Assembly (NCBI RefSeq): GCF_004295345.1
Contig: NZ_CP036200.1
Location: 1,922,001-1,986,000 of the forward strand
Reading direction: 5' to 3'
From: Shewanella maritima
GTDB lineage: Bacteria; Pseudomonadota; Gammaproteobacteria; Enterobacterales; Shewanellaceae
Length of the DNA stretch: 64,000 bases
Shown here one piece after another: positions 9,451 to 20,762 of this stretch (position 1 is its first letter; every line of letters begins with the position of its first letter). A model generated the notes under the pieces. That model made no database searches. It was not told the DNA's origin and saw only the letters and a list, made by a program, of their open reading frames with translations. Position numbers and translations under genes: made by a program.

Positions 9451-11739
9451 ATGATGAGACATAAAAAATCACTTCTCGCGCTTGCGTTGATCACGGCATT
9501 CAGCATGACCGCATGTAGCGATGGTGAAGATGGTAAAAACGGTGAAAATGGCGAAAACGGTGAGAATGGTGAAAACGGCCTTCCAGCGGGTTCATTTACT
9601 GAACATGTTGCCACTGCTGCCGACTTTAAATTAACACTAAATCCAAACGACATTGTGGTGGTTGGCAGTGAACCATTCGCTTTGAAGTTTTCGGTCACAG
9701 GCAAAACTGAGCAAGGCAAAGAAGTGCCCTTCATGGGCCTTGATAAGATTGCTATCTATGTAACCAACCAGTATGAAAACACTGCAGAAGGTGGCGCGCC
9801 ATATTTATGGCAGAACAACGCCGTGGCAAACGATGCTGGTTACTCTATGTACTGTACCCCTGAAGGCAAGACAATTTCTTGGGGCAATGAAGTTAACGCT
9901 TGTACTTTAGTTGAAGACACAGAAAACCCAGGTACCTATACAGGAACATGGGAGCATGATGGTACAGCTCCGATTGTACTGGCAGATGGCAACGCAAATA
10001 ACCTGCATCGCGTAATGGTGCGTAGCTACAATGTGACTGATTTTTCAGGCAGCGGCATTTCCGACAAGCTTCTTTCAATGCCTATAGATTTTATTCCCGC
10101 CACTGGTGAACTAGCAGTATCAATGAAAGATGCAGTGTCTAACGAAGCTTGTATTAAGTGTCACGCAAGCCTTGATGGGTTCGCTGAGGACGATAGCCGT
10201 ATTGCAAATGTCCATGCCCACCACAATTATCAAGAAGTAGACAACTGTATCGCCTGTCATAACCCTGCGATTGCCGCCGATCAAAACGACCCAGACAAGG
10301 GCTATAACCCTAACTGGAACGCTATGATCCATACGATTCACGCCGGTCACCATTTAGATTTACAAGGTGAAGCAAAAGAAGAGTTTGGTGAAGTCGGTTT
10401 CCCTGATGAACTTCATGAGTGTACCGCTTGTCACGACAATGGCATGCAATGGCAAGAAAACATCTATGCTGAAGCATGTGTATCGTGCCACACCAACATC
10501 GACTTTGAAACTGGCGACAACCATGCTGGTATCATCCCTGGTGGTGACGAAGCATGTATCTTATGTCACGGTTCAGGTAGCTTAAGTCCAGCAGTAGCTC
10601 ACCAAGTAGGCCAGCGTGAAGAAGCACAAGGTAACTTCGTCATTGATATTCAATCAGTGGAAGTACAAGATTCAACAACGGCTGACATGAGCAACCTTGT
10701 GGTCACCTCAAAAGTCACCATGAATGGTGAAGCGCTAGATGCAACTACCTACGCAGAGATCACCGATTACATGACTAATGCTAATCGTCCATTCCTACTG
10801 GGTAAACTCAACCCTGAAACAGGTGCAATTGCACACGGCTATGGTAGTGACGGTTTATTCCGCCCTGCATTTACAGGTGGTACTCTAGCTGATGGTGGCA
10901 TGCTAACAGTTAGCCAAGAGTTCGCAACAGCGCTACTTGAAGGTCCTATCTACGCGACTGCAGAAGTTCAGTTATGTGCTAGCCAAACCAAGATTGTTAA
11001 GTGTGATTCCGACGCTTACCAACTTGCAGTAGCAAACACAGCCGAAACTAAGTACTTCAACCTAACTGATGCAAATGCTGACCCGGTAATGACACGTATT
11101 ACTGACCCTGAGCGCACCACGGTGAGCGAAGCTAAATGTAATGCTTGTCATGGTAACTTAACCCACATTAAAGGCTCTCACGGTGTCACTGAGTTTAGTC
11201 AATGTGTCGTTTGTCACAGTGAAAACAAAGGCAGTGTTCCAAGCTATCACCCAACAGTAACTTACAAAACTGATGACGTGGATGCTGATGGCAACGCTAT
11301 TTGGGCTGAAGTGCCAGGTCTAACATTCGCCAACCGCGACCTAGTGACAGTAGCTCACCGTTTCCACAATGCTCGTTGGGACGACACACCACTTGTATAC
11401 CGCGATGCAGAGGGCACACTACATGGATACCCAGCGCCTGAGGCAGACTGTCATGCTTGTCACAAAGAAGACAGCACGCTATTTGCAGCTGACGGTGGCT
11501 TAACATCTGGTAAGCGCGCAATTGAAACAGATGCAGGTTTTATCTCACCTGTCGCCGAATCATGCCGCAGCTGTCACGTGAAAGAGTCAGCTCTTGCTCA
11601 CTTCAAGAGTAATGGTGCTTACGTTCAAGATGATGCAGCTACCACAGCAGACTTACCAATTGAGTCTTGTGCAACTTGTCACGCGGAAGGTAAAACTTAC
11701 GGCGTAGATGTTGTGCACAACGGTAGCGCAGCGCACTAG
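9451..11739 (+). CDS. OmcA/MtrC-family decaheme c-type cytochrome, outer-membrane lipoprotein
   Basis: This 762-residue protein belongs to the surface cytochromes that pass electrons to minerals, flavins or other extracellular acceptors. The signal peptide ends in a lipobox (SMTAC), so the mature protein is a lipoprotein. Directly after it come seven collagen-like Gly-x-y triplets, four of them GEN. Ten CxxCH haem sites are present in two groups of five, at about residues 234-373 and 563-744 (first CIKCH, last CATCH). Beta-rich domains lie between them, including a CX8C pair near residue 510 of the kind that forms a disulfide in this family. It has no mtrA or mtrB partner nearby, so its porin complex must be encoded elsewhere or it works differently. 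It ends just before a row of hairpins. Confidence 0.93.
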   Translation: MMRHKKSLLALALITAFSMTACSDGEDGKNGENGENGENGENGLPAGSFTEHVATAADFKLTLNPNDIVVVGSEPFALKFSVTGKTEQGKEVPFMGLDKIAIYVTNQYENTAEGGAPYLWQNNAVANDAGYSMYCTPEGKTISWGNEVNACTLVEDTENPGTYTGTWEHDGTAPIVLADGNANNLHRVMVRSYNVTDFSGSGISDKLLSMPIDFIPATGELAVSMKDAVSNEACIKCHASLDGFAEDDSRIANVHAHHNYQEVDNCIACHNPAIAADQNDPDKGYNPNWNAMIHTIHAGHHLDLQGEAKEEFGEVGFPDELHECTACHDNGMQWQENIYAEACVSCHTNIDFETGDNHAGIIPGGDEACILCHGSGSLSPAVAHQVGQREEAQGNFVIDIQSVEVQDSTTADMSNLVVTSKVTMNGEALDATTYAEITDYMTNANRPFLLGKLNPETGAIAHGYGSDGLFRPAFTGGTLADGGMLTVSQEFATALLEGPIYATAEVQLCASQTKIVKCDSDAYQLAVANTAETKYFNLTDANADPVMTRITDPERTTVSEAKCNACHGNLTHIKGSHGVTEFSQCVVCHSENKGSVPSYHPTVTYKTDDVDADGNAIWAEVPGLTFANRDLVTVAHRFHNARWDDTPLVYRDAEGTLHGYPAPEADCHACHKEDSTLFAADGGLTSGKRAIETDAGFISPVAESCRSCHVKESALAHFKSNGAYVQDDAATTADLPIESCATCHAEGKTYGVDVVHNGSAAH

Positions 11740-12228: not shown

Positions 12229-13365
12229 ATGGACACCCACTCAGCGCTCTACCAACAAGGTAAAAAACGCCTCGAATACCTACGCCAATTCGCGCCTAGG
12301 CAGCAAGTTTCACTAGAACAAAAAATGCAAGAAGCGGGCATCACCCGCCGTGAATTCATTCAATGGACTGGTGCCGTCACCGCTATGCTGGCACTGCCAC
12401 TACCCTTTAGTACCCTAGTTGCTGAAGCGGCAGAATTAGCCGACCGCGTGCCGCTAATTTGGTTGCACATGGCCGAATGTACTGGCTGCTCAGAGTCGTT
12501 AATTCGCACCGACACCCCTAATCTCGACACCCTCATTTTTGACCATATCTCCCTTGAGTACCATGAAACGCTCATGGCTGCAGCGGGCTGGCAAGCAGAG
12601 GAAAACCTTGAGCACGCCCTTGCTGAGTATCAAGGTCGTTACTTACTTGCGGTTGAAGGCGCGGTGCCAACAGCCAACAATGGCGCTTACTTAACCGTAG
12701 GTTGTAAGGGACATACCGGACTGCACATTGTTAAAGAAGCAGCAGAGCACGCTGCGGCAATTATCTCTGTGGGCACGTGTGCAGCATTCGGTGGTATTCA
12801 AGCTGCACATCCAAACCCGACGGGTGCCAAAGGTGTTGGCGCCGTGGTCAACAAACCCGTGATTAACCTCGGCGGCTGCCCGCCAAGTGAGAAGAACATT
12901 GTCGGCACTCTGATGTACTTCATCATGTTCGGTAAATTGCCTGCACTCGATATGTTTAACCGTCCTAAATGGGCATATGGTGCACGCGTACATGACAACT
13001 GTGAACGCCGCGGCCGCTTTGATGCTGGTGAATTTGTTGAAACCTTTGGTGATGAAGGAGCCAAACAAGGCTACTGCCTCTACAAGGTTGGCTGTAAAGG
13101 CCCTTACACCTATAACAACTGCCCTACTGAGCGCTTTAACCATCACACCAGCTGGCCAGTACTGGCAGGTCACGGCTGCATGGGCTGCTCTGAGCCTAAC
13201 TTCTGGGATGACATGGCAGACTTTGAACGCCCACTAGGCAGACAACTACTACATGGCATAGACGCAACAGCCGACACCATAGGTGCCGTCATTTTAGGCG
13301 CAACCGTTGTGGGTATTGGTGCTCACGCTGTCACTAGCCTTTTCGCTAAGCCATTGGAGGAATAA
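12229..13365 (+). CDS. hyaA: [NiFe] hydrogenase small subunit precursor
   Basis: This is the iron-sulfur subunit of a periplasm-facing, membrane-bound uptake hydrogenase that passes electrons from H2 through cytochrome b to quinone. The 378-residue precursor has a twin-arginine signal, with RR at residues 40-41 in ITRREFIQW followed by a hydrophobic stretch. Cluster ligands follow: C84 and C87 in ECTGCSES, then [19 protein letters not shown], and Cys-rich segments near the C-terminus ([33 protein letters not shown]). A C-terminal hydrophobic anchor near residues 345-370 marks the quinone-reactive type. It is first in an operon whose second gene follows after two bases. The FNR box upstream fits anaerobic expression. 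Confidence 0.93.
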
Positions 13366-13367
13366 AC

Positions 13368-15070
13368 ATGAGTAATCGCGTCGTTATCGACCCTATCACC
13401 CGTATCGAAGGTCATTTACGTGTAGAAGTTGAGGTTGATGAAAACAACACCATTACTAAAGCCTGGTCCTCATCGACACTTTGGCGAGGCATTGAGGTCA
13501 TCCTCAAAGGCCGCACACCAATGGATGTTGGCTTAATTGTGCAGCGTATTTGTGGGTATGTACCTACTCGCACTACCGCTGCGGTACTGAAGCGGTTGAG
13601 AATGCATTGGGTGTTGAAATTCCGCTAAACGCTAAATACCTGCGCTCGCTCATGCAAACCTCGCTGTATATGCATGATCATATTGTGCACTTCTATCATC
13701 TGCATGGTTTGGACTGGGTTGATGTTGTGTCAGCGCTTAGCGCAGACCCAGCATTGGCAGCTCAGGAAGCACTGAAATACACCGCCAATCCGATTGCGGC
13801 AGGTGAAGGTGAGCTTAGAGCCGTTCAGGAACGTGTAAAAGGCTTGGTTGAAACCGGCAAGCTTGGCCCATTTGCCAATGCTTACTGGGGCAACGGTACC
13901 TATAAGTTCACTCCTGAGCAGAACCTAATTGCGGTTTCTCACTACTTAAAAGCACTTGAAGTACAACGTGTTGCGGCTGAAATGCTGGCTATCTTTGGTG
14001 GTAAGTCACCGCATCCACAATCCCTTGTGGTGGGTGGTGTGACAGCAATTCGTGACATGCTCAGCCCAGCGCGCCTGCAAGAATGGAAGCAAAAACACGC
14101 CATTGTTCATGACTTTATTATCCGCGCTTATAAAGCCGATATCGTCATGGCGGCAGCGGCATTTGGCAATGAGCCATCGGTACTTGGCGGCGTTAACGTT
14201 AACAGCTTCTTGGCCACCAGCGACTTCATTCTTGCCAATGGTGAGTACATGTTCGACTCAGGTGTGATCATGCACGGCGATTTAGCAGGCGTGAGTGATA
14301 TCGACCCTGACTCAATTAAAGAAGATGTAACCCACGCTTGGTACAAAGCCGATAGTGCTCAGCACCCGTACGATGGCACCACAGAGCCTAACTACACGGG
14401 CTTTGTTGAGCGTGATACGGTTTACGGCAAACTGCCAACAGTAGATGGCGATGGCAAATACTCTTGGGTGAAATCACCTCGTTACAAAGACGAGCCTGTC
14501 GAAGTTGGCCCATTAGCATCACTACTTGTGAGCTATGCTCGCGGTAACAAAGTCGTCGTTGATGCAGTGAATGGCTTACTGCAAGCCACAGGCCTGCCAA
14601 TTGAAGCACTATTCACCACCCTTGGTCGCACCGCAGCGCGCATGCTACAAACCGTGATTGTCGCTGAAGAAGGCTTAAAAACCTTTGAAGCCATGCTTGT
14701 GAATCTACAAAGCGATGAAAGCACTTATGTCACGCCAGAAATCGACCCGAATACTGACTATGTGGGTCACGCCATGATTGAGGCGCCGCGCGGCATGCTA
14801 AGTCACTGGGTGCGCATTAAAGGTGGCAAGATTGAGAACTATCAAGCGATTGTGCCAACCACTTGGAACTCTGGCCCAATCGACGCTAACGGCAAAATGG
14901 GACCTTACGAGGCATCACTCATCGGCCTTAAGCTCGAAGATCCAACCAAGCCGCTAGAAGTGATCCGTATTATTCACTCATTCGACCCATGTATGGCCTG
15001 TGCAGTACATGTGATGGACTACAACAAGCAAACCCTGGGTCAGTTCCGTATCGACCCTAACAGTTTGTAA
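13368..15070 (+). pseudogene. hyaB: [NiFe] hydrogenase large subunit, frameshifted at the active-site motif
   Basis: This is the catalytic subunit that holds the Ni-Fe(CN)2CO centre. The first frame (13368-13628) reads normally through QRICG and then goes out of register. The rest ([20 protein letters not shown] onward) continues in another frame to 15070. A single missing base near 13554-13556 explains it: TGTGGGTATGTACC stands where TGTGGTGTATGTACC would encode CGVCT. The break therefore falls between the two cysteines of the proximal L1 motif RxCGxC. With one base restored the protein is 567 residues, normal for the family. The distal motif DPCMACAVH and the short tail removed by the maturation protease are intact. 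Either the gene is newly inactivated or the sequence has an error here. Confidence 0.88.
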
Positions 15071-15100: not shown

Positions 15101-15766
15101 ATGGCTACTACAGCAACCCATACTCGGCAGCTAATATTCACGCCTGCCATTAGGATATTTCACTGGCTTAGAGCACTCGCCATCTTAGTGTTAGTGCTCA
15201 CCGGGTTTTACTTGTCTTGGCCATTTTTGGTGGCTCCTGCCACCAACGACATCCAGGTGCAAAGCTATATTCGCTTTGCCCATGTGGTGTTCGGCTTTGT
15301 GCTTACGGCCATCACCATTGTGCGTTTTTACTTGTTTTTCTTTTCTAGAAACGACATCGAGCGCCGCTCGTTTAAAGACGTAATGAGCCTTAATAGCTGG
15401 ATAGTGCAGCTTAAGTCTTATATCTGGATGGGGCACTTAAACAAAGCCGGTATTTACGGTCCACTGCAATTTGTGACCTATGTAGCAATATCATTCGTCG
15501 CTTTGTTTATTTGCATTACAGGTCTAGTTCTATATGCCAATGTTTACCATGAAGGACTTGGCGGCGCGCTGTGGGACGTATCAGCTTGGTTCACCGCGCA
15601 AATGGGTGGTCTCGCCAACATTAGAATTTGGCACCACTACCTCACCTGGGCATTTATTGTGTTTGTGGTGATTCACGTTTACATGGCGGTTTGGTCAGGT
15701 ATTCGCTTTAAGCACAACTCAGTGGACTCGATCGTCTCGGGTTATGACTATCACAAGGACCATTAA
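15101..15766 (+). CDS. hyaC: Ni/Fe-hydrogenase cytochrome b subunit
   Basis: This 221-residue dihaem cytochrome b anchors the hydrogenase and reduces quinone. It has four main membrane helices. Haem-ligand histidines are seen in IFHWLRALAIL, RFAHVVFGFVL and IWHHYLTWAFIVFVVIHVYM, as in the HyaC/HydC family. The ATG at 15101 is the start because AAGGAGGG lies just ahead of it; the frame is open further up to 15071 but without a ribosome site. It follows hyaB by 30 bases and precedes the protease gene by five. Confidence 0.93.
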   Translation: MATTATHTRQLIFTPAIRIFHWLRALAILVLVLTGFYLSWPFLVAPATNDIQVQSYIRFAHVVFGFVLTAITIVRFYLFFFSRNDIERRSFKDVMSLNSWIVQLKSYIWMGHLNKAGIYGPLQFVTYVAISFVALFICITGLVLYANVYHEGLGGALWDVSAWFTAQMGGLANIRIWHHYLTWAFIVFVVIHVYMAVWSGIRFKHNSVDSIVSGYDYHKDH

Positions 15767-15771
15767 TACTA

Positions 15772-16338
15772 GTGAATAACATATTATTGCTAGGTATTGG
15801 TAATGTATTGTACGCCGACGAAGGTGTCGGCGTGCACTTTACTAATTACATCAAGGACAAATACCAATTTAGCCATACAGAGCACCTGCTCGATATTATC
15901 GATGGCGGCACCCTTGCGCAGGGGCTTATTCCACTTATTAGTCGTTACGACAAGCTGATTATTGTCGATACCGTTAATTGCACCACCGCCAACCCTGGCG
16001 AAGTTTACTTTTTCGATTTTGACCAAGCGCCAGCTGAAATTGACTGGCAAGGCAGCGCCCATGAGGTAGAAATGCTGCAAACCCTAACCATGATGGACAT
16101 GGTAGGTGACCGCCCACAAACCCAAGTATTAGGCGTAGTACCCACCGTAATTGAACCTATGACGCTCGGGCTTACCCCATCGCTCCACGCCGCGATTCCG
16201 CTTATGGAGCGCACGCTTATCAACTACCTTGAGCAGCTTGGATTCAATACAAAAGCGCAAACTCAGATCACCATTGATGAGGTGATCCCCGATGCATATA
16301 AACGAGGTGGCAATCATGCAACATCTGATTCAGTTTGA
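15772..16338 (+). CDS. hyaD: Hydrogenase maturation protease
   Basis: This 188-residue endopeptidase cleaves the C-terminal tail of the large subunit once nickel is inserted. It has the family start LLLGIGNVLYADEGVGVH, in which Glu17 is a nickel ligand. DTVN near residue 65 and the His of SAHEVEMLQTLTM near residue 98 supply the other two ligands. It starts with GTG five bases after hyaC. Its end overlaps the next gene by 23 bases, so the two are probably translated together. The protease gene looks intact, although its substrate gene is frameshifted. Confidence 0.92.
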   Translation: MNNILLLGIGNVLYADEGVGVHFTNYIKDKYQFSHTEHLLDIIDGGTLAQGLIPLISRYDKLIIVDTVNCTTANPGEVYFFDFDQAPAEIDWQGSAHEVEMLQTLTMMDMVGDRPQTQVLGVVPTVIEPMTLGLTPSLHAAIPLMERTLINYLEQLGFNTKAQTQITIDEVIPDAYKRGGNHATSDSV

Positions 16339-18153
16339 GTTTATTTGCTCACAAGCCGTGCCGCTCTATGACCACTTATGTCAGCAGTACCAGCAGCACC
16401 CTAATGTCGAGATCCACACCGCGAAAATTATCGACGAGAAATTCAATTGCCGCTATGTATTGGAAGCTGACGGTGCACTGGCTGACTTGGAGCAGCTCGC
16501 CGATGATATTGCAGCGGATTTTCTACTATCTGTTTGGCTGCTCGACACCAAGATCACCCGTTTGGAGCATCCACAACTGGCAGCAAACAACACAAGCCAG
16601 CAGAAAGCCAGCGAGCAACAAGCAAATCATCAGTTTGCTCCGCTTAATTTTTGCCAGCACTGCCAGCCACAGTTTGCCGATAACCAACACTCGCAATTCG
16701 GTAATATCGATTTAGCCTGTGAACATTGCGGCGGCGAGACTAAATTGTCGGTCACCGAACGCGCCCTTACTACACAAGATATTTTTGCCTTTGCAGATCT
16801 GCTGCTCGATAAGCAAACCTTGCACTTACCAGATGACAACATGACGTTATCGATTGCTCAGCCTGGCAATGTGATGGAGCGCCCAGCAATTATCGTGTGT
16901 AACCCTAATGCGCTTAATGGTTATTTCAATGTCACTGAGCAACAAGTATTAGCACTATCAAGCATTGAAAAGCCTTGCTTAAAGCTGCACACCAATGAAT
17001 CAGGCATGCGTTGCATCAAAGCCCCATTAGTCGACGTGCAATTTGCCGACTCTCGCTTAATGGCAATCTTGTGTGAGCGTCTGCGCCAAAAAGGCATTAA
17101 TTGGCTGTATAGCCATTCAAATCAACCTGGGGAGCATCACGGTAATCCGCCACTAAAACTTGCCTGGATAAACCAACGTTGGGTTGCTAAGCAACAAGTT
17201 GCTGCAGGTCAATGTATTAGCCAGTTCCCAGCACTACACGATGAAGCGCAATCGCTGATCAGCAACCTGGCTTACACAGCAACAAGCAAAGGCAGCAGCA
17301 AGTTCATCCGCTGGCAAGCTATGCATACTCAAAACCAAGAGGTATTGCCTAAAACCCACGCAGCGCAATGCGCTATGCTAGCGGGACTACAGGCACAAAC
17401 GCCGCCACCTAAATGCAAAAAGCCCAAAAATGCCGCTGTGTTGTTTTTCAGCCGCTATCAAGCCAGCCAAATTGTCAGCCTCGATGGTCAAGGGCAAACC
17501 GAGCTATTCTTCGAGCTAGCGGCGATGCCAAGCTCAGGTTATGAGATTTGCCACTTGCTAAGTCAAAGCCGCGAAAAAGCCCTGTTGGATAAATTCAAGC
17601 AAGCCTACCCGAGTGCTACACCGCACTGCTTGATATTGAGCTCACTACCCATTCGCAATCACTTACCAGCTTTATGGCGGTTGCGGCTGCGATCATTGGC
17701 TGCAAAATCCACCACGACTCACCGGAGTCAATCACCCAGCAATTAGCCGACAGCTTTGTCGCAGATGCTGCTGCGTATCGTGGCAATAATGCACCGCGAG
17801 TGGACTTCCCACTCACTAAGGGCGAGGCGCACCGCAGTATTAACTGGTGTAAAACCTTGGGTACCTTGATGAGTTTTCGCCTAGCCGGTGAAACCGATAC
17901 CAAGATGCTGGCGTTTGCTTTCCATGACTCGCTCGCTGACTACCTAAGCAACTGGATTGAGCATGTGGATCAAAATATCGGCGTGCAACATCTAGTGCTT
18001 GCCGGTAGTGAATTCGACAATCCGGTGCTGGCACAGCGGATTAATTTGCGCATTGGTAACAACACTCCAATTTTGGTGAACCATCAATTAGATCTAGAAG
18101 GTGCAAATTTAGCAGTCGGAGGCATTTTTCTTGCGCAACGTCGACGTAAATAA
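16316..18153 (+). pseudogene. HypF-like hydrogenase assembly protein (HydE-like), frameshifted
   Basis: Two frames together encode about 612 residues. The first runs from ATG 16316, preceded by GAGGTGG, to the break. The second takes over near 17608-17611 with ECYTALLDIEL and continues to 18153. One missing C in TACCCGAG explains the shift. A zinc-finger-like pair (FCQHC ... CEHCGGE) lies near residue 120. The C-terminal half resembles the Kae1-type carbamoyltransferase part of HypF: compare HLVLAGSEFDNPVLAQR here with HVFCGGVFQNKVLLKQ in hypF downstream. Its place fits hydE of epsilonproteobacterial hydABCDE operons, but that equation is from synteny and memory. It may be a non-catalytic HypF paralogue. 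The frameshift could be decay or a sequencing error. Confidence 0.65.
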
Positions 18154-18230: not shown

Positions 18231-20762
18231 ATGATCAAAGAGCAAGTTAATATTTTTATTAAAGGCATAGTGCAAGGGGTAGGATTCCGCCCGTTTGTGT
18301 TTCGCCTTGCCGATGAGTTTAATCTCAAAGGCACTGTGCTCAATGATCATCGTGGCGTGTCGATTGTGTTTCAAGGTGAAGCCGCTTTGCTCAATCAGTG
18401 CCTAGTCAAACTCGAGCAAAGCCCGCCGCCGCTGGCACGCATCGACAGTATCGACACTCATTACAATTGCATCGACACTGAGTTTGACAGCTTTAGCATC
18501 ATCGAAAGCGATAAGGGTGATGAACAAGCCGTTGTGGCATTGTCAGCCGACAAAAGTACTTGTAATGACTGTTTGGATGAAATGCGCGACCCAAGTAATC
18601 GCCATTACCTTTACCCGTTTACCAACTGCACCAATTGCGGCCCACGCTACAGCATTATCAATGCCCTGCCCTATGACAGACACAACACCTCAATGGCAGA
18701 CTTTGATATGTGCGCTGAGTGCGCTAAAGCCTATAAGAATCCAATGGATCGCCGCTATCACGCTCAACCCGTGAGTTGCCCAAATTGCGGCCCTAAACTC
18801 ACCATCTGTGAGCTTAGCTATGATGCGCCAAGCCAAACCACCCGAATCCTCAACACAGTAAGTGACAACATCATTGAGCAAACCGCTAAGTTACTTGAAC
18901 AAGGAAAAATCCTGGCGATTAAAGGTTTAGGCGGATTTCATTTGGTGTGTGATGCCACCCAAGATAAAGTGGTTAATCTGTTGCGCCAGCGCAAACAACG
19001 CCCTGCAAAACCGCTGGCAGTGATGGTGAAAGATCTTACTCAAGCCAAGTTGTACGCCACAGGTACTGACGCAGAATGGCAACTACTGCAAAGCGCAGAA
19101 AAACCCATTGTAGTAATGGATAAGTACGCGCCAGTAACTAACGATGCTCAACTAAGCGACGCTGTGGCACCCTTGCTAAGCGAAGCTGTTGCACCCAAGT
19201 TAAGCAATACTATTGCGCCAGGCATCGACCGTATTGGTTTATTCTTACCTTACACGCCGCTACACCATCTATTGATGCAAACCTTTGGCAAACCAATTGT
19301 CGCCACTAGTGCTAACCGTAGCGGCGAGCCCATTATCTGCAGCGCTGACGACATCATTGACGGGCTTGGGCATGTGGTTGATGCCATTGTTGACCATAAT
19401 CGCCCTATCATTAATGCCTGCGATGACAGCGTAGTGCAAATGGTGGATGACCAGCTTCAGGTTATTCGCCTCGCTCGGGGTTATGCACCGTTAACGCTTC
19501 CTACAGGTAAAGTAGAGCTTGCTAACAAAGCAGTGTTAGCCGTTGGCGGTCAGCAAAAAAACGCCGTGGGCTTTGCCTTTAAACACAATCTTATTTTGTC
19601 ACCGCATATTGGTGATTTGTTCTCCCTTGAAGCCCAAAGTTATTTTGACCGCAGCCTAGCAACCTTTAAACGCTTATATGACTTCAAACCAACAGAGTTA
19701 GTAAGCGACAAACACCCTGAGTATGCCCCAAGCCAGTGGGCACAAAACTACCACCAGCAAACCAAAACACCCGTAACTAAGGTGCAACACCACTATGGTC
19801 ATGTACTCGCAATAATGGCTGCCAACCAAAGCACACAAACAGTATTAGGTTTTAGCTTTGACGGCACAGGACTTGGCGACGACCTAGAGTCAGGCGAAGG
19901 CTCAAGCAAATGCCTTTGGGGCAGCGAAGTCATGCTCGCCAATACTGACTCATACCAAATACTGGCGCACTTTAGCGAATTTAAACTGATTGGTGGCGAG
20001 CAAGCGATCAAGCAGCCAGTGCGGATTCTATTAGCCTTGCTGTTCGATGTGCTGCCGTTAGAGCAAATTCGAGCGTTGCCGATCAAGGCAATTCAAGCGC
20101 TGTCAGACAACCAGCTAAACAACCTTTACAAACTGTGGCAAAACCCAAATCACGGCATTATGTGCCGCTCGGTTGGGCGACTATTCGATGCTATGGCAGT
20201 GGCGCTGAATTTGATTGAAACCAATCAATTTGAAGGCCAAGCAGGCATGTTAATTGAGGCGCAGGCCACACAAGCAGTTTTGGCTTTAGATAATATCCAA
20301 AGCCTTTCACAGCGGGAGCTAGCAAGCTCGTATATACAACTAGAGTCAACCCAATATTCTGCCGTTAGCACGGCTATCTCTAATGAGCATGATCAGATTA
20401 TTTGTTGGAGCTCGCAGCAAGTGTTTAAGCAAGTGGTTGACGCGCTGTTAACCGCTAGTGCTAACAATGACAGTAGTGACAGCGATGACTGTAATGACAA
20501 CAACGAGTTATGCCAACAAACGAGCGCCAGCCTTTGTCTGCAGTTCATTAATATGCTGGCAGCGGCTGTGACTCAAGTAAGTAATGAGCACAAACAACTC
20601 GCGCATGTATTTTGTGGCGGCGTATTTCAAAACAAGGTGCTCCTGAAACAATGTTTACAACATTGTCAGCAGCATCAACAACAAGTTTTAGCAAGTCAGC
20701 AAGTCCCCGTAAGTGATGGCGGACTTGCTTTAGGGCAGCTCTGGCATGCCATTCACCAGTAA
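18231..20762 (+). CDS. hypF: Carbamoyltransferase HypF
   Basis: HypF converts carbamoyl phosphate to the thiocarbamate on HypE that becomes the cyanide ligands of the Ni-Fe centre. The 843 residues show the usual order: acylphosphatase domain (VQGVGFRPFVFRLA, residues 1-90), two zinc fingers (CNDC...CTNC and CAEC...CPNC, about 105-185), a YrdC-type domain, and a Kae1-type domain with HHYGH, DGTGLGDD and FCGGVFQN. The usual HHHAH appears as HHYGH, keeping the HxxxH spacing. Two local oddities are a 24-base unit repeated three times at 19152-19223 (LSDAVAP-type heptads) and an Asp/Asn/Ser-rich insert near residue 745. It starts 77 bases after the HypF-like gene. No hypA, B, C, D or E follows it. 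Confidence 0.95.
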   Translation: MIKEQVNIFIKGIVQGVGFRPFVFRLADEFNLKGTVLNDHRGVSIVFQGEAALLNQCLVKLEQSPPPLARIDSIDTHYNCIDTEFDSFSIIESDKGDEQAVVALSADKSTCNDCLDEMRDPSNRHYLYPFTNCTNCGPRYSIINALPYDRHNTSMADFDMCAECAKAYKNPMDRRYHAQPVSCPNCGPKLTICELSYDAPSQTTRILNTVSDNIIEQTAKLLEQGKILAIKGLGGFHLVCDATQDKVVNLLRQRKQRPAKPLAVMVKDLTQAKLYATGTDAEWQLLQSAEKPIVVMDKYAPVTNDAQLSDAVAPLLSEAVAPKLSNTIAPGIDRIGLFLPYTPLHHLLMQTFGKPIVATSANRSGEPIICSADDIIDGLGHVVDAIVDHNRPIINACDDSVVQMVDDQLQVIRLARGYAPLTLPTGKVELANKAVLAVGGQQKNAVGFAFKHNLILSPHIGDLFSLEAQSYFDRSLATFKRLYDFKPTELVSDKHPEYAPSQWAQNYHQQTKTPVTKVQHHYGHVLAIMAANQSTQTVLGFSFDGTGLGDDLESGEGSSKCLWGSEVMLANTDSYQILAHFSEFKLIGGEQAIKQPVRILLALLFDVLPLEQIRALPIKAIQALSDNQLNNLYKLWQNPNHGIMCRSVGRLFDAMAVALNLIETNQFEGQAGMLIEAQATQAVLALDNIQSLSQRELASSYIQLESTQYSAVSTAISNEHDQIICWSSQQVFKQVVDALLTASANNDSSDSDDCNDNNELCQQTSASLCLQFINMLAAAVTQVSNEHKQLAHVFCGGVFQNKVLLKQCLQHCQQHQQQVLASQQVPVSDGGLALGQLWHAIHQ

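Follow-up and report, generated by a model that had tools for sequence, protein, structure and literature searches.

A frame break inside the first CxxC motif of a Shewanella maritima hydrogenase large subunit most likely reflects an assembly error

The uptake [NiFe] hydrogenases of Shewanella are encoded in an operon that runs from the small subunit to hypF, and the large subunit of the relatives considered here is annotated either as 'nickel-dependent hydrogenase large subunit' or as 'quinone-reactive Ni/Fe-hydrogenase large chain'. Genes can also appear fragmented for technical reasons: PMC12007338 and PMC8011154 describe indels in short runs of G or C as common in long-read assemblies, which tend to lose a base there. 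We analysed a window of 64,000 nucleotides (bases 1,922,001 to 1,986,000) from the one-contig genome of Shewanella maritima (4,718,011 bases). Between its positions 12229 and 20762 lies an uptake [NiFe] hydrogenase operon with the row of genes known from the genus, i.e., small subunit, hyaB, b-type cytochrome, protease, accessory gene, and hypF (Table 1); it differs from the other Shewanella operons in that hyaB and the accessory gene each carry a frame break. Homologue and protein searches both place the relatives of its hyaB within Shewanella, and the large subunit is mostly 79-92% identical to those listed for the genus, with lower values for one genome (G001) and for the second copy of another (G005). 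The small subunit carries a Tat-like signal, whose PF10518 match, at 22.1 bits, is just under the Pfam cut-off. The initial annotation had described four neighbours of hyaB, the small subunit, the cytochrome, the protease, and hypF, as intact in appearance, which is right, all of them being full length by their family matches; the split accessory gene had been overlooked. We conclude that this is very probably an ordinary operon of its kind in an assembly where some small indel errors remain, among them the hyaB break.

Table 1. Genes and frame breaks of the hydrogenase operon, in positions of the window.
Feature	Position	Strand	Family match or basis
[NiFe] hydrogenase small subunit, 378 aa, full length	12229..13365	+	PF14720, PF01058, TIGR00391
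hyaB 5' open frame, 86 aa	13368..13628	+	PF00374 positions 1-28
hyaB frame break at ~13556, between both cysteines of the first CxxC, at GGG	13545..13565	+	tblastn junction with four relatives; letters
hyaB 3' open frame, within the family from VCTYSHY at 13556	13550..15070	+	PF00374 positions 25-508
b-type cytochrome subunit, full length	15101..15766	+	PF01292, TIGR02125
Hydrogenase maturation protease, full length	15772..16338	+	PF01750, TIGR00072
Split NiFe hydrogenase accessory gene, first part; out of the family at ~17612	16316..17746	+	
Split accessory gene, second part (HypF_C_2); relatives match from 17608	17674..18153	+	PF22521, tblastn
hypF, 843 aa, full length	18231..20762	+	TIGR00143 positions 2-738 of 741

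The hyaB break is present in the letters of the window. The 5' frame follows the family through residue 63 (...VQRICG) and lies outside it afterwards, and when the full-length proteins of the relatives G011, G027, G030, and G062 are aligned by tblastn, the frame switches at 13556 without a missing or duplicated residue; three of these four had also placed the switch in the first of the surveys described below. The PF00374 match is divided over the two frames, and the window has no full-length match in a single frame. The frame change divides the N-terminal CxxC pair, and the C-terminal DPCMACAVH motif lies in the 3' frame. The change had originally been located between the cysteines of RICG-VC, in agreement with the open frames and with the junctions of the four relatives, and the prediction that one restored base would give a protein of 567 residues has the length right, since it is that of an existing database protein (P0001). 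Three G stand at 13556 in the window. In 12 of the 78 named loci to which our counts refer (from the best 80 of 233 hyaB relatives found), the same place reads GGGG, and the remaining 66 have another third base in that glycine codon. A run of G shortened at this point is a plausible form of the error.

We found no sign that the break is a feature of the lineage. The comparison of hyaB with close relatives, suggested from the outset, showed that all 78 named loci encode the motif within a single stop-to-stop frame, 566 codons long or more. Likewise, hyaB is one open frame of at least 567 codons in 25 other Shewanella genomes (L005-L029), a set that partly overlaps with the named loci. Matches to hyaB occur in 30 of 60 genomes, this one included, and G044, G051, and G059 are distant members of that group. 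In another Shewanella genome, hyaB is divided at a different place (L030, G001:C71), and a second hyaB-like copy lies about 4 kb from the first in L078, L086, and G005.

These comparisons bear on two further explanations of the break. Programmed ribosomal frameshifting within the CxxC could join the two frames, which overlap and meet at 13556 without loss of a residue, into a full-length protein, but a frameshift at the motif was seen in none of the named loci, and an identical protein exists in unbroken form. By eye, the junction contains no slippery site of the type X XXY YYZ, and the 101 nt downstream, folded without pseudoknots in search of a stimulatory structure, do no better than their shuffles (z 0.58). 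We reject this explanation, whose chance of being right is minimal, on account of the single-frame motif and of the downstream fold; the initial annotation had itself doubted it. The gene could also be an old pseudogene under relaxed selection, and the operon does contain two split genes. Yet the rest of the hyaB frame is open, and the sites at which it differs from seven of the named loci are mainly third codon positions (59/20/280 by codon position against L034, 66/21/264 against L035). Such counts show a gene that strong purifying selection had preserved at least until very recently, as expected of an error or of a lesion of very young age but not of an old pseudogene. The latter is rejected as well and is hardly credible.

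The initial annotation had left the choice between a loss of H2 oxidation and a sequencing error, and three arguments favour the error and disfavour the loss. First, P0001 comes from one contig of 1,237,819 bases, which is not the contig of the window, and it is identical to the two frames described here over 63 of 63 and 504 of 504 residues, with zero mismatches; it gives a full-length PF00374 match in one frame, at 670 bits. Second, a gene about 0.5 Mb from hyaB shows the same pattern. Apolipoprotein N-acyltransferase, the product of lnt (family TIGR00546 is reached by the G062 protein), is normally an essential enzyme of Gram-negative bacteria. The gene, at L198:17750-19317 and near genome position 1,438,457, changes frame here at about L198:18457, and its unbroken form (P0248, 522 aa) comes from one contig likewise of 1,237,819 bases. 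The two versions of lnt are identical except for two residues where one alignment overruns the junction. Two genes that are both split in one assembly and both unbroken in the other are best explained by errors in the first. On this reading, the 1,237,819-base contig would belong to the same or to a near-clonal strain.

Third, frame breaks are more frequent in this genome than in most of those with which it was compared. A first survey, at an identity floor of 45% and against G027, G030, and G011, covered 7 kb of a 224-kb stretch, because shared gene order was lacking. We therefore added G062, in which the best unbroken match to P0122 lies, and drew 20 spaced stretches from each of three genomes, this one, G062, and G011. 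In total, 624 kb of this genome were compared with stretches of four relatives, of which 58,220 bases were comparable at the 50% identity floor used for the densities quoted here. They contain six breaks, and the same procedure gave none in 64,630 bases of G011, none in 98,140 of G027, two in 98,570 of G030, and four in 91,740 of G062. For the excess, one-sided p is 0.0007 against G011, G027, and G030 pooled (two breaks in 261 kb) and 0.003 against all four genomes. One of the six events, at L198:8987, is uncertain on account of a short query and an odd geometry, and leaving it out gives one-sided p values of 0.003 and 0.012, respectively. Compared singly, the density is raised relative to three of the four genomes. 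At a looser floor (35%), four such places were counted in 27 kb of this genome and five or six in 37 kb of G062, itself break-rich, and by this measure the genome is not the worse of the two. In the survey at 50%, the five breaks other than that of hyaB depend on G062 alone; the one in the accessory gene is further backed by P0122, P0124, and G011, and the one in lnt by P0248. Elsewhere in the genome, at L134:7027-9925 (about 1,889,027-1,891,925), two breaks 1.6 kb apart interrupt the relative of a G062 protein of 947 residues, for which NCBIfam gave no match.

These breaks resemble the gene-fragmenting indel errors of long-read bacterial assemblies (PMC12007338 and PMC8011154): they are spread over the genome, each of the three junctions that we inspected coincides with or adjoins a short run of G or C (of C for the accessory gene and for lnt), and one of them hits a presumably essential gene. 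The exact base lost or gained can be placed here only approximately, from the assembled letters.

The main competitor is a true and recent frameshift in the sequenced strain, which would have abolished the large subunit and H2 uptake while a sister strain kept both. It would account for a break that is visible in the letters, and if the 1,237,819-base contig belongs to another strain, the lesion may be a true difference between strains. The accessory gene also speaks for it. This gene (16316-18153) changes frame at about 17612, within the same operon, and the 119 matches of the protein search included none that was unbroken and came from the 1,237,819-base contig. It is matched in 108 of 129 genomes of the genus, including this one, and the other matching genomes have an open frame of at least 575 codons (judged by eye), except G118, where it is split, and G148, where it has an internal stop. 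In the database, its first piece comes from one contig of 4,718,011 bases, and its cluster has a second member. The accessory-gene break may thus be either a real lesion or an error made in both assemblies. Finally, a loss could be tolerated, since the genome has a second, Hyf-like hydrogenase cluster (gene names by eye). Against a true loss stand the similar break in lnt, expected to be essential, the high density of breaks where the genome could be compared, the otherwise undecayed state of hyaB, and the identity of P0001 and P0248 to the pieces found here outside the junctions. We consider a true recent loss unlikely. A broader version, in which the operon is now being lost in the lineage, with the accessory gene broken in the species, the large subunit just hit in this strain, and the Hyf-like hydrogenase retained, is also quite improbable. 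A literature search on frameshifts in Shewanella hyaB or hydrogenases gave, judged by titles, no account of a break of this kind.

An assembly error thus remains the preferred explanation, and the break in hyaB is most likely not real biology. A small indel left in the assembly would split the gene, and the organism would most likely have an unbroken hyaB and a normal large subunit of 567 residues, in an operon that presumably works. If so, the position of the break at the catalytic motif is a coincidence. The result mainly cautions against counting the frame breaks of this closed genome as gene loss, and a claim such as 'cannot oxidise H2' drawn from the genome would be unsafe. Were the lesion true, it would capture a single strain shortly after it had lost H2 uptake.

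Two other regions of this genome contain genes related by position or kind to those discussed above. Directly upstream of the operon, at 9451-11739, lies a large multihaem cytochrome-like gene with many CxxCH motifs (by eye). The Hyf-like cluster, recognised by eye as one of formate-hydrogenlyase type, spans L205:1382-16936 and encodes an unbroken large-subunit-like protein of 598 aa, and hypD is found near it, at genome positions 3,322,824-3,323,885.
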